Part shown: piece after piece, positions 27,446 to 56,836 of the stretch
Layout of the letters: every line of letters begins with the position of its first letter
Position numbering within the stretch: position 1 is the stretch's first letter
DNA from: Shinella sp. PSBB067
GTDB lineage: Bacteria; Pseudomonadota; Alphaproteobacteria; Rhizobiales; Rhizobiaceae
Length of the DNA: 64,000 bases
Direction: 5' to 3'
Assembly (NCBI RefSeq): GCF_016839145.1
Contig: NZ_CP069304.1
Span: 310,001-374,000 of the forward strand
Notes under the pieces: model-generated
Seen by the model: only the letters and a program-made list of their open reading frames with translations
Told to the model about the DNA's origin: nothing
Databases searched by the model: none
Translations under genes and position numbers: made by a program

Positions 27446-27448
27446 GAA

Positions 27449-30921: not shown

Positions 30922-31253
30922 TTGAGAACCCCTCTTGTTATCAGCGTTTATTGCCGCTGCCCCGGGCAGGCAGTTCTGGCCTCGGTGTTGCCGCGCGACG
31001 TCCTTCCAATTCGGTGCCGGGCAATGACGGCGTCACCCCCGCGGCGCGGGATGGAAGCCGAAAGCGCGCACATCCTCGTAGCCGGCGCGGTCAGGATCCC
31101 TCTTGCGCCTGTGCGACCACGGGGACCATGCCGCCGATCCGAAGAATGACCGCCTGGACGGCGCTATCGCGTGAGATCGTCAAATCCGTGTTCCCATTTT
31201 TGCTTGTTGCCTCGACACTACGTTGCAGCTAGTCTACGGTCCATACCAATACC

Positions 31254-32555: not shown

Positions 32556-33353
32556 TCAGCCGGCCGCCGCATCATACATCGCGAAGACGCGCAAGGGGCT
32601 GCCGGACCCGTTCCGGATCTTCATGGGCGCGGCGACGATGACGGCGCCGAAGGTGGGCAGCTTGTCGAGATTGGTGAGGCACTGGAGGCCGAACCGTCCG
32701 TTGCCGTGCAATATGGAATGGGCCGGCAGCGGCGGATCGAAGCGATAGGCCTGGCCCGCGTCGGTGCCGACGGTTTCGACGGCAAGGCCGACGCAATCGC
32801 GTTCACGGACGAGGAATTCCATGGCCGTCGCGTCGGGGCCCGGCGAATGGGCGCCGTCTTCCTTCAGGTTCATGTATTGCGGCGTTCCGACGCGTTTGTA
32901 CCAGTCGGTGCGCAACGCGATCCAGTGGCGCGGCGGGATAACCCCGTTCGCGTGTTCCCAGTCTTCAAGGAAGGCACGCGTCACCACGAAATCCGCGTTC
33001 GCCTCCGCCTCGCGACTGATGTCGATCACCACCGCCGGCGCGACGAAATCCTTCGCCTCGATCTTGTCGACCGTGTTTCGCGGCAGGTTGCGCCCTGTCA
33101 CCCAGTGGACCGGCGCATCGAAATGCGTCCCCGTATGCTCGTTCATGGAAATGTTGTTCCAGTACCAGGCGGGCCCGTTGTCGTCGTAGCGCGACACCGG
33201 CTCCATCCGGAACGGCGCGCATTGTCCGAACTCCTCCGGCAGGGCGATGACGGGAAAATCGGGGCTGAGGACGTTGGACAGGTCGACACATGCAAGATCG
33301 CCGTTTGCGACCGCGGCGGCGATCTGCCCGGCGAGGGAATTGGCAGCAGTCAT
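32556..33353 (-). CDS. Cyclase/kynurenine-formamidase-like metal hydrolase
   Basis: A 265-aa member of the cyclase (KynB-like) family of metal-dependent hydrolases. The signature metal motif EHTGTHFDAPVHW is near residue 92, and a second conserved segment is EDGAHSPGPDATAMEFLVRERDCVGLAVETVGTDAG. Family members hydrolyse formamides, lactams, lactones or isatin-like rings. It is the last gene of the nitrilase/gentisate operon, 114 bases after the maleate isomerase gene, with a hairpin in the gap. It is clearly paralogous to the cyclase at 51300, sharing long stretches such as GPAWYWNNIS and EHTGTHFDAP. The substrate may be a ring or amide precursor feeding the pathway. Confidence 0.88.
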   Translation of the reverse strand: MTAANSLAGQIAAAVANGDLACVDLSNVLSPDFPVIALPEEFGQCAPFRMEPVSRYDDNGPAWYWNNISMNEHTGTHFDAPVHWVTGRNLPRNTVDKIEAKDFVAPAVVIDISREAEANADFVVTRAFLEDWEHANGVIPPRHWIALRTDWYKRVGTPQYMNLKEDGAHSPGPDATAMEFLVRERDCVGLAVETVGTDAGQAYRFDPPLPAHSILHGNGRFGLQCLTNLDKLPTFGAVIVAAPMKIRNGSGSPLRVFAMYDAAAG

Positions 33354-34226: not shown

Positions 34227-34228
34227 CG

Positions 34229-35146: not shown

Positions 35147-35157
35147 CCGTGATGTCT

Positions 35158-36282: not shown

Positions 36283-36309
36283 GATCGCTTCCTTTCGTTG
36301 CTAAAAGGC

Positions 36310-37344: not shown

Positions 37345-37409
37345 GAAGCCTCCCACCGGCGCGGCATGCATCATGCGGGGCGGCCGACGCTTCTTCGTTT
37401 CGGCATGAC

Positions 37410-37560: not shown

Positions 37561-39714
37561 ATGGCGGAACGATCTTTCGCAAAAGAAGTGGAGCATTTGC
37601 GGCTCGGTGACGGGGAAGTGTTCGCCGGCGAGGGCATTCTCGCCATCACCAAGGCCCTGCTGCAGTCCGGCGTGTCCTATGTCGGGGGATACCAGGGTTC
37701 GCCCATCTCGCACCTGATGGACGTACTCGCCGACGCCAACGATATCCTCGACGAGCTGGGCGTGAACTTTCAGAGTTCGGCGAGCGAAGCGACGGCGGCG
37801 GCGATGCTGTCGGCGTCCGTGATGTATCCGTTGCGCGGCGCGGTGGCGTGGAAATCGACGGTGGGCACGAATGTCGCCTCCGATGCGCTGGCCAACCTGG
37901 CCTCGGGCGGCGTGACGGGCGGGGCGATGGTGATCGTCGGCGAGGACTACGGCGAGGGCTCCTCGATCATGCAGGAGCGCACGCATGCCTTCGCCATGAA
38001 GTCGCAGATGTGGTTGCTCGATCCGCGGCCGGAGCACGAATGCATCGTCAACCTGATCGAGAAGGGCTTCGAGCTTTCCGAGGTGTCCAACACCCCCGTC
38101 ATGCTCCAGGTTCGCGTCCGCTCCTGCCACATGACGGGCAGCTTTGTCGCGAAGGACAACAAGCGGCCGGACTTCACTATCGCCGACGCTCTCGAAAACC
38201 CGAAGCGGGACCTGAGCCGCATCGTTCTTCCGCCCGCCGCCTACGAGCACGAGCAGGAGAAGATCAGGCACCGCCTGCCGGCGGCAATCGAGTTCGTCCG
38301 CGCAAACAGGCTCAACGAGTTCTTCGGCGAGAAGACCGGAAAGACCGGGATCATCACCCAAGGCGGCATGTATAACAGCGTCATAAGGGCGTTGCAGTTC
38401 CTCGGCCTCAGCGATGCCTACGGCACGACCCGCCTTCCCATCTATGTGATGAATGTCGGCTACCCGACGATCAGCAGCGAGGTGGAGGAGTTCTGCAGCG
38501 GCCTCGACGCCGTCCTGGTCGTAGAGGAGGGCCAGCCGGAATATATCGAGCAGGCCATCACGACGGTTCTGGCGCGGGGAGCGATCCCCGTGACGGTTCG
38601 CGGCAAGGCCTATCTTCCGATGGGCGGAGACTACACCGCCGCCGTTCTGACCAGGGGGATCGAAGGTTTCCTCAACGATTTCGATCCGCAGCAACTCGGC
38701 AACCGGCCGCCGAGGCCCGATGTCGCGCCCGTTCTCGCGCAGCCCGCCGTCGCCAGGCTCAAGGACGTCGTGCCGGCGCGGCCCCCCGGGCTTTGCACGG
38801 GTTGTCCGGAGCGGCCGATATTCGCCGCGATGAAAATGGTCGAGGAGGAACTCGGCGCCCACCACGTCTCTGCGGACATCGGCTGCCACCTGTTCTCCAT
38901 CCTGCCGCCGTTCAACATCGGTGCGACCACGATGGGCTTCGGCCTCGGGGCGGCGTCGGCCTCGGCGTTCAACGTCAAGGCGAAGAAGCGCTCGATCGCC
39001 ATCATGGGCGACGGAGGCTTCTGGCATAACGGCCTGACGAGCGGCATCGGCAATGCCGTGTTCAACAAGCACGACGGCGTCTTCCTCATCGTCGACAACT
39101 TCTATTCCTCCGCGACCGGCGGACAGGACATCCTCTCCTCGCGTGCCTTCAACAAGCGCCGCAAGACCAACAACTCCATCGTCGATGCGGTCCGCGGCAT
39201 CGGCGCCAAATGGGTGCGGCAGATCGATCGCACCTATGACGTGACGAAGATGCGCGCCGTGCTGAAGGAGGCCCTGACCACGAAGGAACAGGGGCCGAAG
39301 GTCATCGTCGCCTCCTCGGAATGCATGCTCAACCGGCAGCGCCGGGAAAAGCCAAGGGTCGCAAAGGCGATCAGCGGCGGCGCGCGCACGGTAACCGCGC
39401 GTTTCGGCGTGGACGAGGAGGTCTGCACCGGCGACCACGCCTGTATCCGGCTCTCCGGATGCCCTTCGCTCTCGGTCAAGCAACTGGACGATCCGTTGCG
39501 CGACGACCCGGTGGCGTCGATCGACAATACCTGTGTCGCCTGCGGCAATTGCGGCGAGGTGGCCGACGCGGCGGTGCTGTGTCCCTCGTTCTACCAGGCA
39601 GACGTCATTCACAACCCGAGCCGCCGGGACAGGCTGAAGGAGAGATTGACGGCGCCGCTGATCCGTTTCCTGCAGGCGCGCCAAGATCGGCTGGCCACGA
39701 GTTTCGAGGCGTGA
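37561..39714 (+). CDS. iorA: Indolepyruvate:ferredoxin oxidoreductase alpha subunit (IorA)
   Basis: A 717-aa thiamine-diphosphate and iron-sulfur enzyme that oxidatively decarboxylates aryl-pyruvates to aryl-acetyl-CoA. The N-terminal pyrimidine-binding domain includes LQSGVSYVGGYQGSPISHLMDVL. The C-terminal TPP domain has CTGCPERPIF and GDGGFWHNGLTSGIGNAV. The ferredoxin-like tail has cysteines in CTGDHACIRLSGCPS and NTCVACGNCGE...LCPSF. The frame stays open far upstream, but GGAGGG four bases before the ATG and the family N-terminus fix the start at 37561. It is first in the plus-strand operon, with iorB seven bases downstream. Confidence 0.92.
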   Translation: MAERSFAKEVEHLRLGDGEVFAGEGILAITKALLQSGVSYVGGYQGSPISHLMDVLADANDILDELGVNFQSSASEATAAAMLSASVMYPLRGAVAWKSTVGTNVASDALANLASGGVTGGAMVIVGEDYGEGSSIMQERTHAFAMKSQMWLLDPRPEHECIVNLIEKGFELSEVSNTPVMLQVRVRSCHMTGSFVAKDNKRPDFTIADALENPKRDLSRIVLPPAAYEHEQEKIRHRLPAAIEFVRANRLNEFFGEKTGKTGIITQGGMYNSVIRALQFLGLSDAYGTTRLPIYVMNVGYPTISSEVEEFCSGLDAVLVVEEGQPEYIEQAITTVLARGAIPVTVRGKAYLPMGGDYTAAVLTRGIEGFLNDFDPQQLGNRPPRPDVAPVLAQPAVARLKDVVPARPPGLCTGCPERPIFAAMKMVEEELGAHHVSADIGCHLFSILPPFNIGATTMGFGLGAASASAFNVKAKKRSIAIMGDGGFWHNGLTSGIGNAVFNKHDGVFLIVDNFYSSATGGQDILSSRAFNKRRKTNNSIVDAVRGIGAKWVRQIDRTYDVTKMRAVLKEALTTKEQGPKVIVASSECMLNRQRREKPRVAKAISGGARTVTARFGVDEEVCTGDHACIRLSGCPSLSVKQLDDPLRDDPVASIDNTCVACGNCGEVADAAVLCPSFYQADVIHNPSRRDRLKERLTAPLIRFLQARQDRLATSFEA

Positions 39715-39721
39715 GTGCAAG

Positions 39722-41290
39722 ATGAAAGATGATACTGTCAAGCTCGACCTGAAGGCCGTCGGTCCGGCAACAGAACGGCCCATATCGATCGCCATCGTTG
39801 CGATGGGGGGGCAGGGCGGGGGCGTGCTGACCGAATGGATCGTCGCTCTGGCCGAGCGGGAAGGATGGATCGCCCAGTCCACCTCGGTGCCGGGGGTTGC
39901 GCAGCGCACCGGCGCGACGATCTATTACGTCGAGATGATGCAGGCGAGCCCGGAGGGACGCAAGCCCGTTCTCGCGCAGATGCCGACCCCGGGCGATGTC
40001 GATGTGGTGATCGCTTCGGAATACATGGAGGCAGGCCGATCCATCCTGCGCGGCATCGTCACGCCGGATCGGACGACCCTGATCGCCTCGGACCACCGCG
40101 CGCTCTCGGTGACCGAGAAGATGGCGCCGGGCGAAAGCATCGCCGACAGCGGCGCGGTGACGGAGGCGGTTCACGCCACTGCGCGCCGCGAGATCATATT
40201 CGACCTCAACGCCGTCGCGGTCGAAAACGGGAGCGTCATTTCCGCCGCGCTTTTCGGCGCGCTGGCGGCGTCGGGCGCCCTCCCGTTCGCGCGGGATTCC
40301 TATATCGAGGTGATCCGTCTCGGAGGCAAGGGCGTCCAGGCCAGCGTCAGGACGTTCGATGCCGCCTTCGACCGGGCGACGAAAGGCCCGGCGCAACCAT
40401 CCCTGGTCGAGCAAGAGGACCATGCCGGCGCGCCGGTACCGGTCCGTCTGCCGGACCGAAAGGCCGATGCGTTGCTGCAGCGACTGCGGACCTCACTCCC
40501 GCAAGCCGCCCATGAGATCGCCTTTCTCGGGCTGAAGAAGGTCGTCGACTTCCAGGACGCGGCTTACGGAGCCGAATATCTCGATCTTCTCGGCGCGCTT
40601 CATGCGAGAGATGCTGCGGCGGACGGCGGGCAACACGGCTGGGCCTTCACCGTCGAGGCGGCCAAACACCTTGCGAACGCCATGGTCTATGACGACCTCA
40701 TCCGCGTCGCGCGGGCAAAGACGCGTACCGTCCGCCGCGAAAGGATCAGGAAGGAACTGGGGGTAGATGGCGACCGGATCGTCCGCACCACCGAGTACAT
40801 GCATCCCCGAATGGAGGAGTTCGTCTCCGCGCTTCCCATCGGCCTGGCGCGCTGGATCATCGCCCGTCGCGGCCTTTACGAATGGGCGGACAGGCGCATC
40901 AACAAGGGGCGCCGGGTGCAAACCTACTCGATGCGCTGGTTCCTGGCGCTCTATCTCATCGGCTCGATGCGCGGGACGCGCCGCTGGTCCTTGCGACATG
41001 AAACCGAGGTGAGGCACCGCGGGGAATGGCTGGCGGCGGCTACCGGCGCCCTGGCGTCCAACTACGCTCTGGCCGTCGGGATCCTCAGGTTCCGCAGGCT
41101 CATCAAGGGCTATTCGGACACCCATGTCAGAAGCCTGTCCAAGTTCGACAAGGTCATGCGGACGACCCTGAAAATCGCGGATCGCGACGACGCGGCCATG
41201 TGGGCCGGCCTGTTGCTGTCCGCCGCCGTCAAGGACCCCTCGCACGAGACCCTCGACGGCGTCATCAAAACAATAGAGACGATCCAATGA
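39722..41290 (+). CDS. Indolepyruvate oxidoreductase beta subunit with C-terminal extension (IorB-like)
   Basis: A 522-aa protein. Residues about 18-210 form the gamma-type catalytic domain of 2-oxoacid oxidoreductases (ISIAIVAMGGQGGGVLTEWIVALAEREGW, TSVPGVAQRTGATIYYVE). The remainder is a long helical domain like DUF6537 found fused to IorB in many proteobacteria (FLGLKKVVDFQDAAYGAEYLDLL, GLARWIIARRGLYEWADRRINKGRRVQTYSMRWFLALYLI). It forms the oxidoreductase with IorA. It overlaps the thioesterase gene by ATGA, so the aryl-acetyl-CoA product may be hydrolysed by the next protein. Confidence 0.9.
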   Translation: MKDDTVKLDLKAVGPATERPISIAIVAMGGQGGGVLTEWIVALAEREGWIAQSTSVPGVAQRTGATIYYVEMMQASPEGRKPVLAQMPTPGDVDVVIASEYMEAGRSILRGIVTPDRTTLIASDHRALSVTEKMAPGESIADSGAVTEAVHATARREIIFDLNAVAVENGSVISAALFGALAASGALPFARDSYIEVIRLGGKGVQASVRTFDAAFDRATKGPAQPSLVEQEDHAGAPVPVRLPDRKADALLQRLRTSLPQAAHEIAFLGLKKVVDFQDAAYGAEYLDLLGALHARDAAADGGQHGWAFTVEAAKHLANAMVYDDLIRVARAKTRTVRRERIRKELGVDGDRIVRTTEYMHPRMEEFVSALPIGLARWIIARRGLYEWADRRINKGRRVQTYSMRWFLALYLIGSMRGTRRWSLRHETEVRHRGEWLAAATGALASNYALAVGILRFRRLIKGYSDTHVRSLSKFDKVMRTTLKIADRDDAAMWAGLLLSAAVKDPSHETLDGVIKTIETIQ

Positions 41291-41775
41291 CAATTCCATC
41301 CGTGAAGGGAACCGCCGCGTCCCCGACACCGCTCACCCGCTCCGGCCTGCAGCCCGGCCTCTGGTCGACGAGGGTCGTGTTCAGGCATGGCCAGTGCGAT
41401 CCGGCCGGCATCGTCTATACGCCGAAATTCTTCGACGTCTTCAACCAGACCGTCGAGAAATGGTTCTGTGAAAGGCTCGGCGTGGATTACTACGAGGTCC
41501 TCGGGCCGCGCAGGATCGGGCTCGGCTATGCGGCCGCGTCGGCGACATTCTTCATCCCCTGCATGATGGGGGATGAAATCGAAGTATTCGTCGACGTCGA
41601 CAGGGTGGGGACCAAATCATACACGCTGGTCCTGCATGCATTCAAGGGAGACGGCGAAGCTCTGAGGGGGCAGTTCGTCACCGTCACGACTTCGCTTGCG
41701 ACCCACCAGTCGATCCCGATCCCCGAGGACATCCGCAAGGCGCTTGTTGTTTACTCTGAAACCGCAAGGCGATAA
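41287..41775 (+). CDS. Hotdog-fold acyl-CoA thioesterase (4-hydroxybenzoyl-CoA thioesterase-like)
   Basis: A 162-aa protein. The signature VVFRHGQCDPAGIVYTPKFFDVFNQTVEKWF contains the conserved aspartate of the Pseudomonas-type 4HBT active site, and SATFFIPCMMGDEIEVFVDVDRVGTKSYTLVLHAF forms the central sheet. ATG at 41287 overlaps the iorB stop (ATGA). It probably hydrolyses an aromatic acyl-CoA, possibly the IorAB product. It is followed by two MarR genes. Confidence 0.87.
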   Translation: MTIPSVKGTAASPTPLTRSGLQPGLWSTRVVFRHGQCDPAGIVYTPKFFDVFNQTVEKWFCERLGVDYYEVLGPRRIGLGYAAASATFFIPCMMGDEIEVFVDVDRVGTKSYTLVLHAFKGDGEALRGQFVTVTTSLATHQSIPIPEDIRKALVVYSETARR

Positions 41776-42345: not shown

Positions 42346-42845
42346 TTACTTCCAAAGACAAGGCGCTGCAAAAGTTTCCATTCAACAGCCGGGAGGAGAT
42401 GGAGAACTATCTGCCCTATCTCCTCAACCGGCTCGCGCGGGAATGGTCGATCATCCAGAACAAGGCCTTGCAGGAGCACGGCTGGACGGAAGCGATGATG
42501 CGCATCATGGCGTCGTTGCAGGCGCACGGCCAGCTCACGGTCAACGAGGCCGCGGCGATCTCCCTGATCGAGCAGTCCAGCGCCAGCCGGGTCATCGAGA
42601 GCCTGGTGAAGGCCGGCGAGGTCGTGCGCAAAATCTCCAGCAAGGATCAGCGCGTCCGCACGGTGGCGCTGACGAGCCGGGGCCGCAAGAAACTGCAGGA
42701 GGTCGCGCCGGCGATCAACGACATCTATTTCAAATTCGTCGCCGAGCTCGAATCGGACGAACTCAGGAATTGCATCCTGGGCCTGAGGAAGCTCGAGACG
42801 CGCCACGAGCGGACGGGACAGGGCCAAATGAACGACGTCGCTTGA
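42342..42845 (+). CDS. MarR-family transcriptional regulator (second of pair)
   Basis: A 167-aa winged-helix protein with LNRLAREWSIIQNKALQEHGWTEAMMRIMASLQAHGQLTVNEAAAISLIEQSSASRVIESLVKAGEVVRKI and a wing SSKDQRVRTVALTSRGRKKLQ. It overlaps the preceding MarR gene by four bases (ATGA). It is only distantly similar to its partner, so this is not a recent duplication. Two co-translated MarR proteins might form a heterodimer or answer to two effectors. It is convergent with the acyl-CoA ligase gene, 21 bases away, with no clear terminator between. Confidence 0.88.
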   Translation: MITSKDKALQKFPFNSREEMENYLPYLLNRLAREWSIIQNKALQEHGWTEAMMRIMASLQAHGQLTVNEAAAISLIEQSSASRVIESLVKAGEVVRKISSKDQRVRTVALTSRGRKKLQEVAPAINDIYFKFVAELESDELRNCILGLRKLETRHERTGQGQMNDVA

Positions 42846-42866: not shown

Positions 42867-44504
42867 TCAACGCTTCAGCTTGTAGCCGGAGGCCTCGCGG
42901 TCCCAGGTCGACGCGGTCACGCCCGCCTCGCGCAGGCGCACCTTGCGGATCTTCCCGTTTTCGGTGAGGGGCAGTTCATCGACGAAATCGATGAAGCGCG
43001 GGACGGCGAAGTAGGAAAGCCGGGCGCTGCAGAAATCCGTCAGTTCCACCGGGTCGAGGAGGGCTCCCGGTTCCAGGAGAACCGCCGCCATGACCTCGTC
43101 CTCGCCGAACTCCGAAGGAACCGCATATGCCGCGCAGGACGAGACCGCGGGGTGCGACAGCAGCACCTGCTCGACCTCCCAGGAGGATATGTTCTCGCCG
43201 CGACGCCGGATCGCATCCTTCATGCGGTCGATGAAGCGATAGTTGCCGTCGGGATCCCGGCTCACCCGGTCCCCGGTGTGGAACCAGAGGTTTTGCCAGG
43301 CTTCGACCGTCTTGCCCGGCATGGCGAAATAGCCGGTCGCGAAGGCGAAGGGTTCGTTCGCCCGCAGGATCAGTTCGCCCGCCTCGCGGTCGGAAACCTC
43401 GACGTCGTCCTCGTCGACGATCCTGGCCTCCACGCCGGGGCAGAGATAGCCCATGGTGCCGGGATGCCCGGACGGGATGCGGCTGGCGAAAACGAAGTTG
43501 GTTTCCGTCGATCCGTAAGCGTCGAGCAGCGGTACGCCGAAGCGTTCGAGGAAGGGCTTGTGAAAACGCCCGGGAACTCCTCCGCCGAGCGCCGTCCGCA
43601 TCGAATGGGCGCGGTCGGATTCATCGTCGGGCCGCGACAGCAGGATCGCCGCCATGGCGCCGAGGAAATAGCCGACCGTGGCCTTGTGCCTTGCGGCGGA
43701 TTTCCAGAAGCCGGACGCGGAGAACCTGGCCTCGAGCACATAGGTCGATCCCGTCAGCAACGCCTGCCAGAAACAGTTCAGGGCGTTGGTGTGGAAGAGC
43801 GGAAGGGTTGTGAGGAGCACGTCGCCCTCGCGAATGCCGAGCCCGCGCGCGGTGTTGACGCCCCACCAGAAGAACTGGGCCTGCGGGCAGCAGACGCCTT
43901 TCGCCGGGCCCGTCGTGCCGGACGTATAGAGGATCGCCAGCGTGTCGCCGGGACGCACCGCATGCGCATCGATCGTTTCCCGCCCCTCGGGCAGAGGGCG
44001 CGCGGGACGGTTGCCGACCATTTCGACGCTCCCGCCGATCGTCCAGACCTGCTCCAGCGTGCTGCAAGCCTCGGCAGCGTCGTCGAAAGCCGGGGAGATG
44101 TCCGACTCCACGATGAGCAGCCGGGCCTCGCAGTTGCGCAGGATGTGCTGGAGCTGCGTGCCGCGCGACGCGGTGTTGATCGGAACCATGACCGCGCCGA
44201 TCCAGGCGCAGCCGAGAAAAACGGCAAGGAACTCCGACCGGTTTGAACAGAAGATCGCCACGCGGTCGCCGGCCTTGATGCCCGCCGAGACAAGCAGCGC
44301 CCCCGTGCGGCCGGCCACATCGAGCGTGTCGCGACAGGTCCATGCCTGATCGCCGAAAACCGCCAGCCAGCGATCGCCGTAGCGTTCCGCCTGTGCCTTA
44401 AGGATGTGCGGCAAGGTTCTGCAATGGGGCGGGAAACGGTGCGGCAAGGCATCGATGAAGCCGATCGTTGCCGCATCCGCCGCGGAGGCATTGTGCTCGA
44501 GCAT
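42867..44504 (-). CDS. AMP-dependent acyl-CoA ligase (first copy)
   Basis: A 545-aa adenylate-forming enzyme that activates a carboxylic acid to its CoA ester. It has P-loop-like ILYTSGTTGPAKGV, LDAYGSTETNFVF, the hinge-region WFHTGDRVSRDPDGNYRFIDRMKDAIRRRGENISSWEVE and the catalytic lysine in LPLTENGKIRK. ATG at 44504 is preceded by AGGAG at proper spacing. It follows the ALDH by 26 bases. Together they make an aldehyde to acid to acyl-CoA module. Crotonobetaine/carnitine-CoA ligase-like enzymes have a similar layout; the real substrate is unknown. Confidence 0.92.
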   Translation of the reverse strand: MLEHNASAADAATIGFIDALPHRFPPHCRTLPHILKAQAERYGDRWLAVFGDQAWTCRDTLDVAGRTGALLVSAGIKAGDRVAIFCSNRSEFLAVFLGCAWIGAVMVPINTASRGTQLQHILRNCEARLLIVESDISPAFDDAAEACSTLEQVWTIGGSVEMVGNRPARPLPEGRETIDAHAVRPGDTLAILYTSGTTGPAKGVCCPQAQFFWWGVNTARGLGIREGDVLLTTLPLFHTNALNCFWQALLTGSTYVLEARFSASGFWKSAARHKATVGYFLGAMAAILLSRPDDESDRAHSMRTALGGGVPGRFHKPFLERFGVPLLDAYGSTETNFVFASRIPSGHPGTMGYLCPGVEARIVDEDDVEVSDREAGELILRANEPFAFATGYFAMPGKTVEAWQNLWFHTGDRVSRDPDGNYRFIDRMKDAIRRRGENISSWEVEQVLLSHPAVSSCAAYAVPSEFGEDEVMAAVLLEPGALLDPVELTDFCSARLSYFAVPRFIDFVDELPLTENGKIRKVRLREAGVTASTWDREASGYKLKR

Positions 44505-44530
44505 GTCCACTCCTGAGCCTCGGGTTCCGA

Positions 44531-46042
44531 TCAGCCGGCGTCGCCAAATTCCAGACGCATGCATACGGCGCGCGGCTCGGTATAGGCATGAATGGCCTCG
44601 GATCCGAACTCGCGGCCCAGGCCGGAAAGCTTGGTGCCGCCGAAAGGCATCGCGGTATCGAGCACGTTGTGGGTATTGATCCAGACGGTGCCCGTATCGA
44701 TCTGGCTCGCCAGGAGATGGGCGTTGTTCAGGTCGCGCGTCCAGATGCTCGCGCCGAGGCCATAGACCGTGTCGTTGGCGAGAGCCCTGATCTCACGGAT
44801 ATTGTCGAAGGGCATTGCAAGGACGACCGGGCCGAAGACCTCCTCGCGCGTGATGCGCATGTCGGCGCGTCCGCGGCCGAGCACCGTCGGCTTGAAGAAG
44901 TAGCCCTTGCGGTCCTCGCGGCCGGCACCGCAGAGCGGTTCGGCGCCTTCCTCCACACCGCTGTCGACGAGCGCGGCGACCCGCTCCAGCTGGCGGGCGG
45001 AAATCAGCGGCCCGAGCTGGCTTGCCGGGTCGAAGCCGCTGCCGAGGCGCAGATCCCTGGCTATTTCCACGACGCCGCGCGTCACGTCCTCGTAGATCGA
45101 CGCGTCGATGAAAAGACGGGAGCCTGCGGTGCAGACCTGCCCGGAATTGGGGAAAATCGCGTTTGCCGCTCCCGGTATCGCCTTGTCGAGATCGGCGTCG
45201 GCAAGGATGATCGTCGGAGATTTTCCACCAAGTTCCAGTGTGACCCGCTTCATCGTGCGCGCGGACGATTCCAGGATCTTCTGACCCGTCGCGGTCGAAC
45301 CTGTGAACGTGATCTTGCGCACGAGAGGATGGTCGACCAGCGCCTGGCCGGCATCGTGCCCGTATCCCGTGACGATGTTCACGGCGCCGTCCGGGATGCC
45401 GGCCTCGAGAATGAGCTCCCCCAGCCTGAGTGTCGTGAGGGACGCCTCCTCCGAAGGCTTGACGACGATGGTGCAGCCGAAGGCGAGGGCCGGAGCGATC
45501 TTCTGCACGGCCTGCCCCATCGGGAAATTCCACGGCGTGATGCCCGCGACCACGCCGACGGGCTTGCGCTCCGTGTAAGCCCGGTACGTTCCCCCGTCAT
45601 CGACGAAAGGCGACAACGCAATATATTCGCCGGCCATCTTGGAGCTCCATCCGGCATAATAACGGAGCGCGTCGACGGCGAACTTCATGTCGACATTTCT
45701 CGAGACGCCATACGGTTTTCCGTTGTCCAATGTCTCGAGGCGTGCCAGTTCCTCGGCATCGCGTTCGACGAGAAGGGCGAGCCTTTCGAGAAGGCGGCCG
45801 CGATCGAGCGGCCGCATACGCTGCCATGCCGGGCTTTCGAACGTGCGGTGCGCGGCCTCGACCGCACGGTCGACATCGGCTGCGGAGGCCGCCGCGATGT
45901 CGGCGATCTTCTCCTCGGTCGCCGGATCGTGGACGGCGATCGTTTTCCCGTCGGCGGCGTCGTACCACCGTCCATCGATCAGCAGCTTTCCGGCCGGAAT
46001 CCGCACCGCCTGGCCGCCAGCCCTTTCTATCATTGCATGCAT
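44531..46042 (-). CDS. Aldehyde dehydrogenase (third copy)
   Basis: A 503-aa ALDH with TPWNFPMGQAVQKIAPALAFGC, glutamate motif LELGGKSPTIIL, catalytic cysteine in FPNSGQVCTAGSRL, EEVFGPVVL and PFGGTKLSGLGREFGSEAI. The pattern is close to betaine and aromatic aldehyde dehydrogenases. It is transcribed with the downstream acyl-CoA ligase and lies just upstream of a LysR gene on the same strand. Its 209-bp 5' region contains CCAATAATTTTGG, a motif with relatives in front of other operons here. It may oxidise an aryl acetaldehyde. Confidence 0.94.
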   Translation of the reverse strand: MHAMIERAGGQAVRIPAGKLLIDGRWYDAADGKTIAVHDPATEEKIADIAAASAADVDRAVEAAHRTFESPAWQRMRPLDRGRLLERLALLVERDAEELARLETLDNGKPYGVSRNVDMKFAVDALRYYAGWSSKMAGEYIALSPFVDDGGTYRAYTERKPVGVVAGITPWNFPMGQAVQKIAPALAFGCTIVVKPSEEASLTTLRLGELILEAGIPDGAVNIVTGYGHDAGQALVDHPLVRKITFTGSTATGQKILESSARTMKRVTLELGGKSPTIILADADLDKAIPGAANAIFPNSGQVCTAGSRLFIDASIYEDVTRGVVEIARDLRLGSGFDPASQLGPLISARQLERVAALVDSGVEEGAEPLCGAGREDRKGYFFKPTVLGRGRADMRITREEVFGPVVLAMPFDNIREIRALANDTVYGLGASIWTRDLNNAHLLASQIDTGTVWINTHNVLDTAMPFGGTKLSGLGREFGSEAIHAYTEPRAVCMRLEFGDAG

Positions 46043-47261: not shown

Positions 47262-48884
47262 ATGCAATCCCCCTACCTGATCTTCGAGAAGCAAGCCCGG
47301 CAGCAGCCCGACGCCCCCCTTCTGATCGCGCCGAAATCCGCCGGCCTGCCCTATGCGGCAGATGGTTTCCGGATGACCTACGGGGAGGTCTTCGCCGCCG
47401 TGGATGTCCTGAAGGACAGGTTTGCGAAGGCGGGTTACGGCGCGGGGCACCGCGTCGCGCTGCTGCTTGAAAACCGGCCGGAATTCTTCATCCACTGGCT
47501 CGCTCTGAATGGCCTCGGCGTGTCGATCGTTCCCATCAATCCGGATCTTCGCACCAACGAACTGGAATACCAGTTGTCGGTTTGCGAGGCGGAACTGCTG
47601 GTGGCGTGGTCGAAGTCCGCTGCCGCGCTCGTCGGCTTTTCCCGTCCGGGCCTCGCCATCGTCGACCTCGATGACGACGTTCCGCCCGCATCGACGCGCT
47701 CGGGGCGTCAGCACGGCGTGGAGACGGACGAATGCGCGCTCCTCTTCACCTCCGGCAGCACCGGCAAGCCGAAGGGATGCATGCTTTCCAACGCCTATTT
47801 TCTGACACTGGCGGACTGGTATGTCACCCAGGGCGGGATCGCGAGGGTCGAAGAGCGCTCGGAAGTGGCGCTTACCCCATTGCCGATGTTCCATATGAAC
47901 GCGCTCGGCTGCACCGCGCTCGGCATGATCGTTTCGGGCGGCGCGATCGTTCCGCTCGATCGTTTCCATGCAAGCCGCTGGTGGCAGTCGGTGAGCGAAT
48001 CCGGCGCGACCATCGTCCATTGCCTCGGGGTCATTCCGGCCATTCTCCTGCGGTTGCCCGCCTCGCGCTTCGACAGGGACCATGCGGTGAAGTTCTCGTT
48101 CTCGCCGGGAGTGGATGCGCAGCACAAGATCGAATTCGAGGCGCGCTACAACATCCCCATCGTGGAAGCCTGGGCCATGACGGAGACGGGCGGCCGCGCC
48201 ACGACCACGACGGCCCGTGACGACTACACGCCGGGCCTGCGGTGCATCGGCCGGCCGCGCGAGGGAATGGAATATCGCATCGTCGACGATGCGGGGGCCC
48301 CTGTCGAACGCGGCACGCCGGGTGAACTGATCGTGCGGGCGGCGGGGGAGGATCCGCGCCGTGGCTTTTTCAGCGGATACCTGAAGGACGAAGCGGCCAC
48401 CGAGGAAGCATGGGCGGGCGGATGGTTCCACACCGGCGACATCCTCTACGAAGATGAAAAAGGCCTGCTCTACTTCTTCGACCGCAAGAAGAGCATCGTG
48501 CGCCGCAGCGGCGAGAACATCGCGGTCCTGGAGGTCGAGGCGGCCATCGGCGGAAATGCGTCGATCAAGGCCGTCGCTGTGACGCCGGTGCCGGACGACC
48601 TGCGTGGTGAGGAAGTCTTCGCCTTTCTCGTCAAGGCCGACGCGGCGCGCGATGCCGACCCCTCGCGCATCGCCGAGGAGATCATGCGCAGCGGCGCCGA
48701 GCGCCTCGCCTATCACAAGCTGCCCGGATATGTGGCTTTCATCGACGCCCTTCCGCTAAGCTCGACCCAGAAGCTGCAGCGGGGGGAGATCAAGACGATG
48801 GCGACGGAGTTCGTGCGGTGCGGCAAGGCCATCGATTTGCGCGAGATGAAGGCCGGCATGCGGCGCAAGACGGTGCATGCGTGA
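47262..48884 (+). CDS. AMP-dependent acyl-CoA synthetase (second copy)
   Basis: A 540-aa adenylate-forming enzyme with ALLFTSGSTGKPKGC, EAWAMTETGGRATTT, WFHTGDILYEDEKGLLYFFDRKKSIVRRSGENIAVLEVE and a C-terminal lysine in LPLSSTQKLQRGEIK. It activates the acid that enters the thiolase-like/DUF35 pathway downstream. AAAGGACGGCA precedes the ATG. Its stop overlaps the next gene's ATG by one base (TGATG), starting a run of four translationally coupled genes. Its sequence differs clearly from the ligase at 42.9 kb. Confidence 0.93.
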   Translation: MQSPYLIFEKQARQQPDAPLLIAPKSAGLPYAADGFRMTYGEVFAAVDVLKDRFAKAGYGAGHRVALLLENRPEFFIHWLALNGLGVSIVPINPDLRTNELEYQLSVCEAELLVAWSKSAAALVGFSRPGLAIVDLDDDVPPASTRSGRQHGVETDECALLFTSGSTGKPKGCMLSNAYFLTLADWYVTQGGIARVEERSEVALTPLPMFHMNALGCTALGMIVSGGAIVPLDRFHASRWWQSVSESGATIVHCLGVIPAILLRLPASRFDRDHAVKFSFSPGVDAQHKIEFEARYNIPIVEAWAMTETGGRATTTTARDDYTPGLRCIGRPREGMEYRIVDDAGAPVERGTPGELIVRAAGEDPRRGFFSGYLKDEAATEEAWAGGWFHTGDILYEDEKGLLYFFDRKKSIVRRSGENIAVLEVEAAIGGNASIKAVAVTPVPDDLRGEEVFAFLVKADAARDADPSRIAEEIMRSGAERLAYHKLPGYVAFIDALPLSSTQKLQRGEIKTMATEFVRCGKAIDLREMKAGMRRKTVHA

Positions 48885-50065
48885 TGGCGGCGCCGATGGT
48901 ACGGAAATCATATAGCGGCGTCGTCGCGACCGTTCCGGTCTCCATTCCCTATGAACGGTATTCGATCGAGAGCGCGCATTGGTGGATCGGCCGCGCATTG
49001 CGGGCGCTTGCACAAGGAGCCGGCATCAGCCATCGCGAGATCGACGGCTTTGCCATGGCCAGCTTCTCCACGGCGCCCGACAGCGCGATCGGACTGACGC
49101 AGCATCTCGGCCTGTCGCCGCGATGGCTCGACCACATCCCGATGGGCGGTGTTTCGGGTATCCTGTCCCTTCGCCGGGCGGCGCGCGCCGTACAGGCGGG
49201 GGATGCCGACATCGTCGCATGCGTGGCGGGAGACACCAATCAGGTGGACACGTTCCGCAGGACCCTGGAAAACTTCTCGAGGTTCGCGCAGGATGCCGCC
49301 TATCCCTATGGCGCGGGCGGCGCCAATGCCAGCTTCGCCCTGATCGCCCGTCATTACATGGATCGCTTCGGGGCGAGGCGGGAGGACTTCGGCAAGCTTT
49401 GCGTGGCGCAGCGGACCAACGCGCTGCGCAACCCGAATGCGCTCATGAAAAAGCCCCTGACGCTCGAGCAATACATGAATGCGCGACCGATTGCCGATCC
49501 GATCCATCTGTTCGACTGCGTCATGCCCTGCGCCGGCGCGGAGGGTTTCCTCGTCATGCGCGAGGAGACGGCGCGGTCGCTGGGCCTGCCCAGTGCGCGC
49601 ATCCTGTCGATCATCGAGCGTCACCATGCGTTTTCCGATGACGCGGTGCAGTATCGGGGCGGCTGGGCGAGGGATATCGGCGAGCTCTACAGCATGGCCG
49701 GCATCTCGCAGGACGCCATCGACGTCGTCCAGACTTATGACGATTATCCGGTCATTTCCATGATGCAGTTCGAGGACCTCGGCTTTTGCGGAAAGGGCGA
49801 GGGCCCCGACTTCGTCCGAAGCCACTCCTTCGAGATCGACGGCAGCTTCCCGCACAATACCAGCGGCGGGCAATTGTCCGCGGGACAGGCGGGCGCCGCC
49901 GGCGGCCACCTGGGTATCGTCGAGTGCATCCGTCAGGTCATGGGCCTTGCCGGTCCCACGCAGGTCGAGGGGGCAAAGCTGGGTCTGGCCTCGGGCTTCG
50001 GAATGATCAACTATGATCGCGGCCTTTCCTCGGGCGCCGTGATCTTTTGGGGAGAGACGACATGA
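48884..50065 (+). CDS. Thiolase-fold protein without thiolase cysteines (Ltp/BbsB-like)
   Basis: A 393-aa SCP2-type thiolase-fold protein. The acylated cysteine expected near residue 89 is missing (IPMGGVSGILSL). The GHP histidine position reads GGQLSAGQAGAAGG (residues 328-341), and the C-terminal cysteine region reads ASGFGMINYDRGL. The fold signature persists, so the enzyme probably catalyses C-C bond cleavage or formation on a CoA thioester by other residues, as known for steroid side-chain retro-aldolases (Ltp2) that work with a DUF35 partner. The next gene encodes exactly such a DUF35 protein and overlaps by ATGA. ATG at 48884 overlaps the synthetase stop. Confidence 0.85.
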   Translation: MAAPMVRKSYSGVVATVPVSIPYERYSIESAHWWIGRALRALAQGAGISHREIDGFAMASFSTAPDSAIGLTQHLGLSPRWLDHIPMGGVSGILSLRRAARAVQAGDADIVACVAGDTNQVDTFRRTLENFSRFAQDAAYPYGAGGANASFALIARHYMDRFGARREDFGKLCVAQRTNALRNPNALMKKPLTLEQYMNARPIADPIHLFDCVMPCAGAEGFLVMREETARSLGLPSARILSIIERHHAFSDDAVQYRGGWARDIGELYSMAGISQDAIDVVQTYDDYPVISMMQFEDLGFCGKGEGPDFVRSHSFEIDGSFPHNTSGGQLSAGQAGAAGGHLGIVECIRQVMGLAGPTQVEGAKLGLASGFGMINYDRGLSSGAVIFWGETT

Positions 50066-51303
50066 CCGAGCCGCTGTCCCCCCCGAAACGCAAGAACCCG
50101 CTGGCCCGCACGCGAAGGACGTTGCTGCCGCCGTCCGCCCGAAGTCGCACCGCGCATGGATTGACCCTCGCGGCTGCGGAGGGACGTTTCGCACTCCAGC
50201 GCTGCGGCGAATGCGGCAAGTTCACCTATCCTCCGCGCGATGCATGCCCTGAATGCCTGTCGTCGCAACTGGTTTTCGTCGAAGCGCCCGTCGGGGGCGT
50301 GCTGGTCACGTCCACGACCATCCACGTCACCGGCGACAGCTACTTCCGTGAGCACATGCCTTGGCGGCAGGGTATCGTCGTCGCCGATTGCGGCCCGCGG
50401 ATCATCGCCCATCTTCACGCAGACTGCACGGACGGGGAACGGGTGAACCTTTCGCTCCGTCTCGACAAGGCCGGCCAGCCGGTCGCCTTCGCGGCACCTT
50501 CGCAAAGGGCTTCCAACATGCAGGACGATCCGGCCTTGCGCGAGATGACCGCCGATCCGAGATACAGGCGCGTGCTCATCACCAACGGGCGCCACCCCGC
50601 AACCGAAGCATTGGTCCGGTCCTTCAAGGATGCAGGGGCCACGTCGGTTTTCGTTGGCGTTGCGGAAGCCTGGAAGCCGCTTGCCGGCGAGGACCGGCTG
50701 GGGGCGATCGACGGCGTCCAGCTCCTGCCGCTCGACCTCACCGATCAGCGGTCGGTCTTCAACCTCGCCGCGGATATCGCCGGCAAAGTCGATATATTGG
50801 TGAACACGGCCGACCACGTAAGACCTGTGCATCTCTTTGAACCGGCCGGCACGCGCAAGCTGATGGAAGCGGTAAACGCCACCGTCGCCGGCACGATGAA
50901 CCTGGCGCAGGCCTTCGGGCCGGCCATGGCCGGCCGCGGGGCCGACGGGGTCAATTCAGCCGCAGCCTGGGTCAACCTGCTGTCGGCTTATGCGCTGGCA
51001 AATGCGCCCGAATTCGGCGCGGTTTCCGTTTCGCATGCCGCCTGTCTCTCCCTGTCGCATTGGCTTCGGGCCGAACTGCGCAAGGGCGGCGTGCGGCTCC
51101 TCAACGCGTTTGCCGGTCCCCTCGATGACGAATGGTACCAGTCGGTGCCGGCGCCGCGCGTCTCCGCCGGTCAACTGGCGGACGGCATCATCGACGGGCT
51201 GCGTCGCGGGCTGGAGGAAATCTATGTCGGCGACGTCGCACGCGACATCCGCGCCCGGCTCGCCGCCAATCCAAAAGCTCTGGAACGGGAAATCGGTCGA
51301 TGA
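50062..51303 (+). CDS. DUF35 Zn-ribbon/OB-fold protein fused to a degenerate short-chain dehydrogenase
   Basis: A 413-aa two-domain protein. Residues 40-150 are a DUF35/ChsH2-type unit: rubredoxin-like zinc ribbon C48-x2-C51...C62-x2-C65 (RCGECGKFTYPPRDACPECL), then an OB-fold (GGVLVTSTTIHV, GIVVADCGPRIIAHL). Residues 168-410 follow the SDR fold: LITNGRHPATEALVRSFKDAG in place of TGxxxGxG, DILVNTADHV for NNAG, and VNLLSAY for the serine strand. The catalytic Y-x3-K is replaced by V321-S-V-S-H325. The SDR half is thus probably non-catalytic or altered. It should form a complex with the preceding thiolase-like protein, whose stop it overlaps. Confidence 0.83.
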   Translation: MTEPLSPPKRKNPLARTRRTLLPPSARSRTAHGLTLAAAEGRFALQRCGECGKFTYPPRDACPECLSSQLVFVEAPVGGVLVTSTTIHVTGDSYFREHMPWRQGIVVADCGPRIIAHLHADCTDGERVNLSLRLDKAGQPVAFAAPSQRASNMQDDPALREMTADPRYRRVLITNGRHPATEALVRSFKDAGATSVFVGVAEAWKPLAGEDRLGAIDGVQLLPLDLTDQRSVFNLAADIAGKVDILVNTADHVRPVHLFEPAGTRKLMEAVNATVAGTMNLAQAFGPAMAGRGADGVNSAAAWVNLLSAYALANAPEFGAVSVSHAACLSLSHWLRAELRKGGVRLLNAFAGPLDDEWYQSVPAPRVSAGQLADGIIDGLRRGLEEIYVGDVARDIRARLAANPKALEREIGR

Positions 51304-52106
51304 ACATCAGTCATGATAGCGCCTGCGAGGCCCTGCTCGCCTCCGTCGCCCTGGCCATAGCGGATGGCGGGTTACAGGTCGTCGACCTCACGCAGACATT
51401 GAGCCCCGACTTCCCGACGATCGTGCTGCCGCCGGAATTCGGCCAGAGCGCGCCCTTCCGCATGGAGCGGATCTCGCGCTACGACGGCGACGGCCCGGCA
51501 TGGTACTGGAACAACATCTCGCTGGGAGAGCATACCGGGACGCATTTCGACGCGCCGATCCATTGGTATACCGGCAGGGACCTGCCCTTGAACACCGTCG
51601 ACACGATCCCCGTCCGCGATATGGTCGCGCCGGCTTGCGTCATCGACTGCTCCAGCCAATCTGACGCCGATCCGGACTACCTCCTCGGCGTCGCGGACGT
51701 GCTTGCCTGGGAAGAGCGCCACGGCAGGATTCCGCCACGGACATGGGTGCTGCTGCGGACCGACTGGTCGAAGAAATCCGGCCGGGACTATACGAACCTG
51801 CGCGATGACGGCGCCCATACGCCCGGCCCAGACGCCGAGGTGATGCGATGGCTGGTGGAGGAGCGCGACATCCTCGGCTTCGGGACGGAAACCATCGGGA
51901 CGGATGCCGGGCAGGCGTCGCATTTCATCCCCCCGCATCCCGCGCACCACTTCCTGCATGGAGCCGGGCGGTACGGGCTCCAGTGCCTCTCCAATCTCGA
52001 TCTTCTGCCCGCGCGGGGCGCGCTGATCGTCGGTGCGCCGCTGAAGATCCGGCATGGCTCGGGCAGCCCCTTGCGCGTCCTTGCGCTTGTGGCCGCCAAG
52101 GCCTGA
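51300..52106 (+). CDS. Cyclase/kynurenine-formamidase-like metal hydrolase (second copy)
   Basis: A 268-aa paralogue of the 32556-33353 protein, with the same metal motif GEHTGTHFDAPIHWY, the same PAWYWNNIS block and DDGAHTPGPDAEVMRWLVEERDILGFGTETIGTDAG. By eye well over half the residues match. It starts by ATGA overlap with the DUF35-SDR gene and ends the operon. A lactonase, amidase or ring-opening hydrolase role is likely. Keeping one copy in each of two unrelated operons suggests that both pathways handle the same chemical group. Confidence 0.87.
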   Translation: MNISHDSACEALLASVALAIADGGLQVVDLTQTLSPDFPTIVLPPEFGQSAPFRMERISRYDGDGPAWYWNNISLGEHTGTHFDAPIHWYTGRDLPLNTVDTIPVRDMVAPACVIDCSSQSDADPDYLLGVADVLAWEERHGRIPPRTWVLLRTDWSKKSGRDYTNLRDDGAHTPGPDAEVMRWLVEERDILGFGTETIGTDAGQASHFIPPHPAHHFLHGAGRYGLQCLSNLDLLPARGALIVGAPLKIRHGSGSPLRVLALVAAKA

Positions 52107-55505: not shown

Positions 55506-56720
55506 TCAGTTCCGCGGCATGCGGGACGGCGCTGTCGACGGCGGCGTCTCCGCCAGCAGCTTCAGCGCGGCGTGGGTGAACAGCCGCACGCCCATGGCCA
55601 GCGCGTCCTCGTCGATCTGGAAGGCGGCATCGTGATGGGCGGCGGTGATGCCTTTTTCAGCATTGCCGGCACCCAGCAGCACGAAGCACGACGGCGCCTC
55701 GTGGCCGAAGGCGGAGAAATCCTCACCCGGCATGATCGGCGGCATCTCGCCGACGCCCCGCGGATCGAACAGGCCGGTGGCGACGTCCCGGACGATGCCG
55801 GCGGTCGGCGCGTCGTTGACGACGGCGTCGTAGATACGCCGGTATTCGTAGATGCAGGTTGCGCCATGGGCCGCGCAGATGCCGGCGGCGATCTCGCCGA
55901 TCCGCCGCTCGATCCTGTCGCGCACGCCGGCATCGAAGGTATTGGTGCCGCCGCCGATGGATGCGCTCGCCGGGATGACGCCGACGGAGCGGCCGGCATG
56001 GAATTCGGTCACGCCGACGACCGCCGCCTCGAGCGGATCGATCTCCCGGGACACCAGGTGCTGCAGGTTGGCGACGATCTGCGCGCCGATGGCGATCGGG
56101 TCGATGGCTGCATGCGGCGCACCGATATGGCCGCCCTTGCCGACGACCTTGATCCGGAAGACATCGCAAGCCGCCATGACGCGCCGTGAATTGACCTGGA
56201 CCGTGCCGATCTCGTAGGGCGACCACAGATGCAGGCCGATGACCCGGTCGACGCCGTCCATGGCGCCGCCGGCGATCATCCCGGCCGCCCCGCCGGGCGG
56301 CGTTTCCTCGCCGTTCTCGAACAGGAAGCGGACCTCGCCGGCGATCTCTTCACGCAGGCGCGACAGCACGCTGGCGGTGCCGAGAAGGATGGCGGTATGC
56401 CCGTCATGACCGCAGGCATGCATGACCCCGTCGCGCCGCGACGCATAGGGCAGGCCGGTTTCCTCGCGGATCGGCAGCGCGTCGAAATCGGCGCGGATCG
56501 CGATCGTCGGGCCGGGACGGGCCCCGCGCAGACGCCCGACGACGCTGGTCCCGGAGGGATGCGAGATCTCGATGCCGCCGAAGGCGGAAAGCTTGGAGGC
56601 GATGAACGCCGAGGTCTCGACCTCCTCGAACGACAGTTCGGGATTGGCATGCAGGTGCCGCCGCCACTCGACGACGCTTGCACGCATGTCGTCGACCATG
56701 TCCTCGATCTTTTGCCTCAC
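55506..56720 (-). CDS. M20 amidohydrolase (hippurate/IAA-amino acid hydrolase-like)
   Basis: A 404-aa zinc peptidase-family enzyme that hydrolyses N-acyl amino acids. Motifs are RRHLHANPELSFEE, ADFDALPIREETGLPY, the metal motif MHACGHDGHTAILLGTA, ENGEETPPGGAAGMI and a C-terminal GEDFSAFGHEAPSCFVLLG. GTG at 56720 is chosen because GAGGGGAG stands six bases before it and the protein then begins near the usual RRHLHANPE region. An upstream in-frame ATG at 56822 gives a low-complexity extension. It is divergent from the binding-protein gene at 56996 and likely splits an imported conjugate. Confidence 0.92.
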   Translation of the reverse strand: MRQKIEDMVDDMRASVVEWRRHLHANPELSFEEVETSAFIASKLSAFGGIEISHPSGTSVVGRLRGARPGPTIAIRADFDALPIREETGLPYASRRDGVMHACGHDGHTAILLGTASVLSRLREEIAGEVRFLFENGEETPPGGAAGMIAGGAMDGVDRVIGLHLWSPYEIGTVQVNSRRVMAACDVFRIKVVGKGGHIGAPHAAIDPIAIGAQIVANLQHLVSREIDPLEAAVVGVTEFHAGRSVGVIPASASIGGGTNTFDAGVRDRIERRIGEIAAGICAAHGATCIYEYRRIYDAVVNDAPTAGIVRDVATGLFDPRGVGEMPPIMPGEDFSAFGHEAPSCFVLLGAGNAEKGITAAHHDAAFQIDEDALAMGVRLFTHAALKLLAETPPSTAPSRMPRN

Positions 56721-56836
56721 GTCGGCTCTCCCCTCGTTGGCGTCGTCCGCGGCGGCAGGCTTCGGTCGGCCGGGCCTGTCCGAGATGCGGCTTGTCCGCG
56801 TCCCTAGGCCCCAGCCAAACACCGGTGGCCGGCGAT

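Follow-up and report, generated by a model that had tools for sequence, protein, structure and literature searches.

The thiolase-fold protein and DUF35-SDR fusion of a Shinella gene cluster match IadG and IadH of the iad auxin locus and probably act as a scaffolded retro-aldolase

The window analysed here, a stretch of 64,000 nucleotides from Shinella sp. PSBB067, encodes a thiolase-fold protein (THI) and a DUF35-SDR fusion (FUS) which, together with a ligase (LIG) and a cyclase (CYC), match IadF-G-H-I of the auxin (iad) locus, as judged from sequence. IadG and IadH, a pair that serves soil bacteria in breaking down the plant hormone auxin, belong to the iad auxin-degradation locus of Variovorax paradoxus (PMC12633357, PMC9613470, PMC10374108). 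The window pair is likely to be the IadG and IadH of an auxin-catabolic locus that resembles iad, and to act as a retro-aldolase on a DUF35 scaffold. A sequence-only reading of this DNA had proposed that the pair could be a C-C lyase of CoA esters resembling Ltp2/DUF35, whose DUF35 scaffold is fused to an inactive SDR, in an undescribed pathway; the evidence favours the lyase, whereas the claim of an undescribed pathway fell with the finding of IadG/IadH homologs. An aromatic or alicyclic lyase unrelated to known loci was ruled out by the iad homology and synteny.

The four genes follow one another on the forward strand, and the acyl-CoA synthetase and the cyclase reported beside the pair are indeed there, LIG before THI and CYC after FUS. 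LIG (47262..48884), an AMP-forming acyl-CoA ligase and IadF homolog (Pfam AMP-binding, 202 bits), shares 44-46% identity with its counterparts in the iad loci L131 and L129, and its stop codon has one base in common with the THI start codon (TGATG, 48882-48886). THI (48884..50065), the predicted retro-aldolase and IadG homolog, has 393 aa and overlaps by ATGA (50062-50065) with FUS (50062..51303), the IadH homolog of 413 aa with zf-ChsH2, OB_ChsH2_C and adh_short domains; the coordinates and frames of this overlap had been read correctly. Another ATGA (51300-51303) is common to FUS and CYC (51300..52106), an isatin-hydrolase-like cyclase and IadI homolog.

In L131, the genes run reductase, Rieske alpha, Rieske beta, ligase, THI, FUS and CYC, which is the iadC-to-I order, and the Rieske alpha protein matched the solved Variovorax IadD 9o71 with E 1.6e-162. 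In the Variovorax-type locus L129, a Rieske alpha that matches the IadD chains 7yls and 9o71 (984 bits) lies about 2 kb away from THI and FUS; CYC and LIG homologs are present too, which makes all four IadF-G-H-I homologs plus IadD; among the matches listed, all FUS relatives of L129 with a genus name were Variovorax. Compared with L129, identity is 64% for the window THI and 48% for the window FUS, and the window pair is 57-73% identical to the pairs of loci in IadD-bearing genomes such as L038 and L051. L038 carries IadD, IadE and an IadJ-like SDR directly upstream of THI-FUS-CYC, followed by LIG, a second ligase (LIG2), a thioesterase (TE), IorA and IorB. The window has its IadF, IadG, IadH and IadI homologs in order and is without the first oxygenase IadCDE, so we call it iad-like and not a complete iad locus. 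No IadD ortholog was found in its own genome, where the best IadD-like match was 29% identical and on another contig. We submitted 50 of 80 loci to an IadD survey, leaving out L073 and L077; among the 48 FUS-bearing genomes searched, 19 had a match (E <= 1e-60) and 29 had none.

THI had been described as lacking the acyl cysteine, the GHP histidine and the C-terminal cysteine of thiolases, and alignments to 7yvy and 6esq bore this out. Gly89 (49148..49150, + strand) occupies the acyl-Cys place, Gln335 (49886..49888, +) the GHP-His place, and the C-terminal Cys site reads LASGFGMIN. Gly89 and Gln335 are each kept in 120/120 THI homologs, and CtSal likewise has Gln (GGQLSFGQSG); since these 120 proteins are the top-listed matches of one search, and the 241 FUS proteins discussed below those of two, both sets are biased to close relatives. 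The YDDY motif (Y285-D286-D287-Y288; 49736..49747, +), which holds the proposed base Tyr and Asp287 as the proposed second catalytic residue, was present in all 120 homologs and in 85/85 locus rows, and its place reads YDCY in Sal, YDHF in Ltp2 and HDCF or HDAF in thiolases. THI is thus a thiolase by fold but not by its acyl Cys, GHP His and C-terminal Cys positions. With Sal and Ltp2 it shares the base Tyr of YDxx (Y285, 120/120) and a Zn-ribbon DUF35 partner encoded alongside. The second catalytic residue of those enzymes (Cys in Sal; in Ltp2, Tyr344 together with the His of YDHF) is missing from THI, and because Asp287 and Gln335 are found instead, we file THI not as Sal or Ltp2 but only as probably working alike. 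IadG-type proteins join CtSal in the tree weakly (76/72) and on long branches. The AF2 model of THI is below 50 pLDDT at residues 1-6, 121-147, 203-214, 250-253 and 330-336, which are partly in the active site, and its top fold matches, thiolases included, span about two Z units.

HMM searches of the two halves of FUS placed zf-ChsH2 and OB at residues 37-131 and the SDR half at residues ~168-413 (50563..51300, +, for 168-413). The fusion is intact, and its four cysteines, V321-x3-H325 in place of Y-x3-K and TNGRHPAT in place of TGxxxGxG agree with what had been read from the letters. The Zn-ribbon cysteines C48, C51, C62 and C65 (50203..50256, +) are kept in 86/86 aligned rows, window included, and in 241/241 proteins. 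None of the 241 IadH-type proteins has both the SDR Tyr and Lys, and the first Gly of the glycine motif is D, N or E in every one. Variovorax-type IadH has Phe for Tyr and keeps Lys and Ser308 (each 121/121); Lys is missing from Rhizobiales-type IadH in 120/120. The L129 row, with Phe for Tyr, is the sole fusion row of 86 to retain Lys, and Ser308 is retained in the window FUS. By the Tyr, Lys and TGxxxGxG signatures FUS is not a classical SDR oxidoreductase. Among solved SDRs the nearest is 5u4s; it aligns Leu at the Tyr place yet contains NADP in the structure, so the SDR half of FUS might still bind a nucleotide. Fold matches listed for the FUS model were SDR chains only, and this fold test covers the SDR half.

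The motif alignments comprised 86 FUS and 85 THI rows (window included) from 100 and 106 hit loci, excluding the duplicate loci L085-L089 and L098-L106 and hits with <330 aligned residues or with <35% (fusion) or <50% (THI) identity. The fused ORF is free of internal stops in 80/80 related loci, and the 4-base THI/FUS overlap is present in 69 of the 79 loci measured. An intact Cys/His/Cys set, an intact Tyr/Lys pair or separate genes, any of which would have contradicted the earlier reading, were absent from the 80 closest loci. Co-occurrence was surveyed in 398 genomes, where THI and FUS were adjacent and in the same 8; FUS matched 29 of these genomes at E <= 1e-20, 21 of them in the SDR half only, and these 21 were not counted as fusions. 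In the order sample, FUS was found in 14/297 genomes, all of which lie within the 17/297 with THI (E <= 1e-100), G448, G592 and G607 having THI only; misses are possible in these genome searches, since scoring stopped after the first few candidates of each genome. G505 and G538 have the two genes separated by 0.45-1.2 kb. Unfused DUF35 was seen only next to more distant thiolase-fold relatives. In L165, L167 and L169 a YDDY protein adjoins a DUF35 stretch (in L169 a tblastn match only) and a ligase, and the search turned up no SDR half; L166 also encodes a YDDY protein, but DUF35 was not matched in its neighbourhood, the L171 and L172 proteins read YDDF, again without a DUF35 match, and the L168 THI, with NDEC aligned where YDDY is expected, was not counted.

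Thiolase/DUF35 pairs are known from other pathways. In toluene degradation, BbsC of BbsCD is a non-catalytic SDR of the same pathway as BbsAB, and the DUF35 and SDR of the Bbs system are separate proteins. BbsAB (7pxp) is a thiolase/DUF35 pair like THI/FUS, with BbsB named the thiolase subunit, and its PDB sequence match was only 1.3e-22. The bile-acid aldolase CtSal-CtShy(DUF35) (PDB 9myr; PMC12329534) shares with the window pair the thiolase fold without acyl Cys, YDxY with the base Tyr, GGQLSxGQ with the Gln and the DUF35 partner; it differs in having catalytic Cys304 where THI has Asp287, and CtShy is a Cys3His protein fused to a MaoC hydratase whereas FUS combines a four-Cys ribbon with an SDR. 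The steroid aldolase TcLtp2-ChsH2(DUF35) (PDB 6ok1) shares the base Tyr, in YDHF, and the DUF35 partner, and it performs retro-aldol cleavage of a tertiary-alcohol beta-hydroxyacyl-CoA, as we propose for THI, but its YDHF His and Tyr344 are without counterparts in THI, which has Asp287 and Gln335 at or near these places. The published catalytic residues are Y302 and C304 in CtSal and Y294 and Y344 in Ltp2. Activity was undetectable in CtSal C304A, C304S and C304H, which counts against Asp287 in that place, and we have seen no evidence for Asp serving at the C304 place of CtSal. The V. paradoxus iad locus, compared through L129 and not CL014, has a homologous THI and the same DUF35-SDR fusion; unlike the window it has IadCDE, and its IadG and IadH are named differently in PMC12633357.

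CYC matched isatin hydrolase A structures (5nna, 5nnb, 5nmp; PMC6117287) with E 1e-105 to 1e-110 and has the HTGTHFDAPxHW stretch in common with 5nnb, which by sequence places it among isatin hydrolases. Kynurenine formamidase was ruled out (4cob 2.4e-8 vs 5nnb 1.2e-110). A second isatin-hydrolase-like cyclase, CYC2, is encoded at 32556..33353 on the reverse strand (5nna, E 9.8e-100). A preprint (PMC12633357) reports C8H7NO3 after IadI. By arithmetic this is isatin + H2O, while C8H7NO2 + H2O would be C8H9NO3, so the product fits hydrolysis of isatin and not of dioxindole.

We propose that LIG would form dioxindole-3-acetyl-CoA (3-hydroxy-2-oxindol-3-yl-acetyl-CoA), a tertiary beta-hydroxyacyl-CoA, and that the pair would cleave it to isatin and acetyl-CoA by a redox-neutral retro-aldol reaction. 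Tyr285 of THI would take the proton from the C3 hydroxyl, the C3-CH2 bond would break to give isatin and the acetyl-CoA enolate, and Asp287, held near Gln335, would most likely give or relay the returning proton. Within FUS, the DUF35 half may dock on the aldolase and give the acyl pocket its shape, like its counterparts in Sal-Shy and Ltp2-ChsH2, and the SDR half may be a pseudo-enzyme that binds or positions without reduction. Deletion of iadH lowers anthranilate (PMC12633357) even though 0/241 proteins have Tyr + Lys, which points to FUS as a structural partner. Isatin would pass to the adjoining CYC to give isatinate, which an IorAB-type oxidoreductase and a thioesterase may convert to anthranilate. 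Candidates on the forward strand are the IadA-like IorA (indolepyruvate:ferredoxin oxidoreductase alpha; 37561..39714, start approximate), proposed to act on isatinate and 70-71% identical to the pair-neighbouring IorA of L017, L031, L038, L058 and L069; the IadB-like beta subunit IorB with DUF6537 (39722..41290; NF006179, 664.9 bits, cut-off 348); and the 4HBT thioesterase TE (41287..41775; 4HBT_2, 55 bits), proposed for anthraniloyl-CoA hydrolysis.

In bacterial auxin breakdown, the conversion of dioxindole-3-acetate to isatin is still poorly assigned; for this step PMC12633357 fell back on annotation, with IadG named as a ketothiolase and IadH as an alcohol dehydrogenase. The IadG and IadH sequences argue against these names. 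Our literature search, mostly open-access, found no paper applying retro-aldol cleavage to IadG or naming dioxindole-3-acetyl-CoA, and since PMC12633357 uses the names above, the enzyme class and mechanism of IadG, not the pathway, appear new. Should the pair prove to be a redox-neutral retro-aldolase, this reaction would need no NAD(P)H, yield acetyl-CoA directly and hand isatin to the adjacent hydrolase; the widespread database names acetyl-CoA acetyltransferase and SDR oxidoreductase would be corrected, a Tyr-Asp active site would join the Sal/Ltp2 aldolases and a pseudo-SDR the DUF35-scaffold partners, with bearing on cassettes that move auxin degradation into root bacteria.

Among the alternatives, we give some weight, though well below that of the reading above, to a retro-aldol pair that in Rhizobiaceae-type loci such as the window uses another beta-hydroxyacyl-CoA, its product merely isatin-like. 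This would suit the lack of IadD in the own genome and in 29 of the 48 searched, as well as the extra window genes for a nitrilase, a gentisate-dioxygenase-like protein, FAH and an M20 amidohydrolase, but CYC and CYC2 are both isatin-hydrolase-like, the pair is 57-73% identical to those of IadD genomes (such as L038 and L051), and IorAB and a thioesterase lie nearby as in L038. The published model, in which the ketothiolase IadG and an active alcohol dehydrogenase IadH remove the side chain reductively to dioxindole (C8H7NO2), we regard as unlikely. In that study C8H7NO2, with two H more than isatin, accumulated without iadI and with iadCDEFGH_JK2, from which reductive removal was inferred (PMC12633357); the Lys and Ser308 of Variovorax-type IadH and the NADP in 5u4s also speak for it. 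IadG-type proteins, however, have neither Cys nucleophile nor GHP His, Tyr or Lys and the first Gly are replaced throughout the IadH types, and C8H7NO3 fits isatin.

Less probable again is a true thiolase that converts 2-aminobenzoylacetyl-CoA to anthraniloyl-CoA and acetyl-CoA. The thiolase fold of THI would agree with it, as would the older B. japonicum route via 2-aminobenzoylacetic acid, postulated by Egebo 1991 as cited in PMC8383072, but besides lacking the acyl Cys and GHP His, THI has Tyr for the His of HDxF, and the isatin hydrolase would be left without a role although both isatin and isatinic acid have been found in V. paradoxus. A sequencing artefact or a decaying gene is hardly credible as the origin of the fusion or of the missing residues: we found no supporting point, an artefactual fusion is rejected by the uninterrupted reading frame in all 80 loci, and the motifs are uniform in the 241 and 120 proteins.

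Beyond the retro-aldolase reading, a more speculative extension is that Rhizobiaceae-type loci without IadCDE scavenge plant-oxidised or conjugated auxin through a third, Tyr-Asp class of DUF35-scaffolded aldolase, whose fused pseudo-SDR might be an oxindole-binding or isatin-channelling domain. The inputs would be oxIAA or dioxindole-3-acetate, perhaps released by the M20 amidohydrolase. In such a pseudo-SDR, Lys would have been lost in one lineage and Tyr in another. M20 amidohydrolase genes recur in L005, L007 and L010.

Two MarR regulators are encoded on the forward strand. The first (41818-42345) had 3boq as best match; the second (42342-42845) matched 7kym (E 5.7e-29), a structure deposited with an auxin MarR study, and more strongly 3e6m (2.3e-32). 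On the reverse strand follow LIG2 (42867..44564; NF004808, 826.6 bits, cut-off 722), an acyl-CoA ligase recurrent in related loci, and an aldehyde dehydrogenase (44531..46042) with 78-86% identity to counterparts in L005-L010 and L021.

The operon opens with the acyl-CoA ligase gene (LIG, 47262-48884), which shares one base with the gene for the thiolase-fold protein (THI, 48884-50065). Four-base overlaps then link THI to the DUF35-SDR fusion (FUS, 50062-51303) and FUS to the isatin-hydrolase-like cyclase (CYC, 51300-52106). The sequence-only reading had described THI as a thiolase without its catalytic cysteines and histidine, and FUS as a DUF35 unit joined to a degenerate SDR half. The reading frames, the Pfam domains and the alignment to solved thiolases bear out this structural description. 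Thiolase_C_1 is the sole Pfam match of THI, and FUS matches zf-ChsH2, OB_ChsH2_C and two SDR models, with the OB_ChsH2_C match lying just above threshold (27.2 bits, cut-off 27.1). The catalytic residues of the known DUF35-associated aldolases CtSal and TcLtp2 are given in PMC12329534, according to which the position of the thiolase nucleophile is a Gly in Sal. For CYC, the E value is 1.2e-110 against isatin hydrolase A and 2.4e-8 against kynurenine formamidase, and a second isatin-hydrolase-like cyclase is encoded at 32556-33353.

A scan of contigs with the fusion alignment returned 323 stretches encoding relatives, and the best 80 of these 323 were kept. THI adjoins FUS in 79 of the 80 loci, the exception (L059) being a contig cut at that point, and a close CYC is likewise present in all but one (L021). 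Three loci carry IadD, the Rieske alpha subunit of the auxin-degradation (iad) locus of Variovorax paradoxus, next to the THI-FUS pair; L131 and L129 were found by genome searches and L038 by the contig scan. L131 has an unbroken run of genes for a reductase, the two Rieske subunits (alpha, then beta), a ligase, THI, FUS and CYC; the Rieske alpha of this locus is a match to solved Variovorax IadD (chains 9o71 and 7yls). In L129, about 2 kb separate THI/FUS from a Rieske alpha that matches IadD chains 9o71 and 7yls at 984 bits, and homologs of CYC (65%) and LIG (46%) are also present; among the matches listed, Variovorax is the sole genus among the genus-named relatives of its FUS. L038 belongs to a Rhizobiales genome and has IadD, the Rieske beta IadE and an IadJ-like SDR upstream of THI-FUS-CYC, followed downstream by LIG, a second acyl-CoA ligase, a thioesterase, IorA and IorB. 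Therefore, with Iad gene names taken from PMC9613470, LIG, THI, FUS and CYC are homologs of IadF, IadG, IadH and IadI, respectively, and the window's IorAB genes resemble IadAB. The sequence-only reading was thus right about the kind of system, probably a CoA-dependent lyase pair, but the pathway is not the undescribed one that it had suggested as a possibility. The Variovorax-type locus L129 additionally holds a second Rieske alpha/beta pair (L129:4199-5994), which shares 46% identity with the IadD-IadE pair in L131.

According to PMC9613470, V. paradoxus yields dioxindole, isatin, isatinic acid and anthranilate. PMC12633357, a preprint, reports less anthranilate and more C10H9NO4 (dioxindole-3-acetate) when iadF, iadG, iadH or iadI is deleted, as well as accumulation of C8H7NO2 in the absence of iadI. 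There, IadF is assigned as an acyl-CoA synthase, IadG as a ketothiolase and IadH as an alcohol dehydrogenase that jointly carry out a reductive removal; by the authors' own account, the intermediate steps were assigned from annotated function.

In a phylum sample of 398 genomes, the full-length fusion was present in 8, and the SDR half alone was matched in 21 further genomes. Strong THI matches fell in the same 8 genomes, adjacent to the fusion, and the next-best THI match was at 4e-83. In an order sample of 297 genomes, 14 carried the fusion and all 14 carried THI, which also occurred in three additional genomes at E <= 1e-100. An IadD ortholog was found in 19 of the 48 fusion-bearing genomes searched, including 16 of the 17 Bradyrhizobium-named genomes (the exception is L067) and none of the Rhizobium-, Neorhizobium-, Mesorhizobium-, Ochrobactrum-, Bosea- or Chelatococcus-named ones. 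An iad locus in B. japonicum is described in PMC9613470. One stop codon lies within the aligned stretch in 10 of the 20 IadD matches, from 10 genomes (nine TGA, one TAA), possibly where the alignment runs past a genuine C-terminal stop. The search of the strain's own genome returned no IadD ortholog, only four Rieske matches of 26-29% identity, all on another contig; therefore, on the boldest reading left, the locus may serve to degrade auxin that has been oxidised or conjugated.

Several genes at 22000-31000 of the window have homologs near THI-FUS in other rhizobia: an OsmC-like gene (22000-22422) and an Asp/Glu-racemase-like gene (22438-23235), both in L018 and L029; an ALDH-like stretch (24123-25610) in L005, L007, L009 and L010; and a peptide-type ABC transporter (25622-30921) in L006, L018 and L029. 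The catabolic cluster may extend over 22-52 kb of the window. Within 33468-37374, the minus strand encodes a gentisate/5-aminosalicylate-dioxygenase-like cupin, both of whose matches are below cut-off, together with an FAH hydrolase, an arylmalonate-decarboxylase-like protein and a nitrilase. These genes could channel anthranilate through gentisate in a lower pathway, a route that PMC8383072 cites for Alcaligenes. The M20 amidohydrolase at 55506-56822, also on the minus strand, has a 71-74% homolog within the cluster in L005, L007 and L010 and is a candidate for auxin-conjugate hydrolysis.

Near THI-FUS in another related locus (L130:8461-10848), a 795-aa bifunctional protein resembling salicylyl-CoA 5-hydroxylase (1053.7 bits, cut-off 1078) suggests an anthraniloyl-CoA branch. 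Two more distant THI relatives (L171 and L172) have YDDF instead of YDDY, the THI motif that contains the proposed base Tyr285 and Asp287; therefore, the Asp at this position may mark a larger group.
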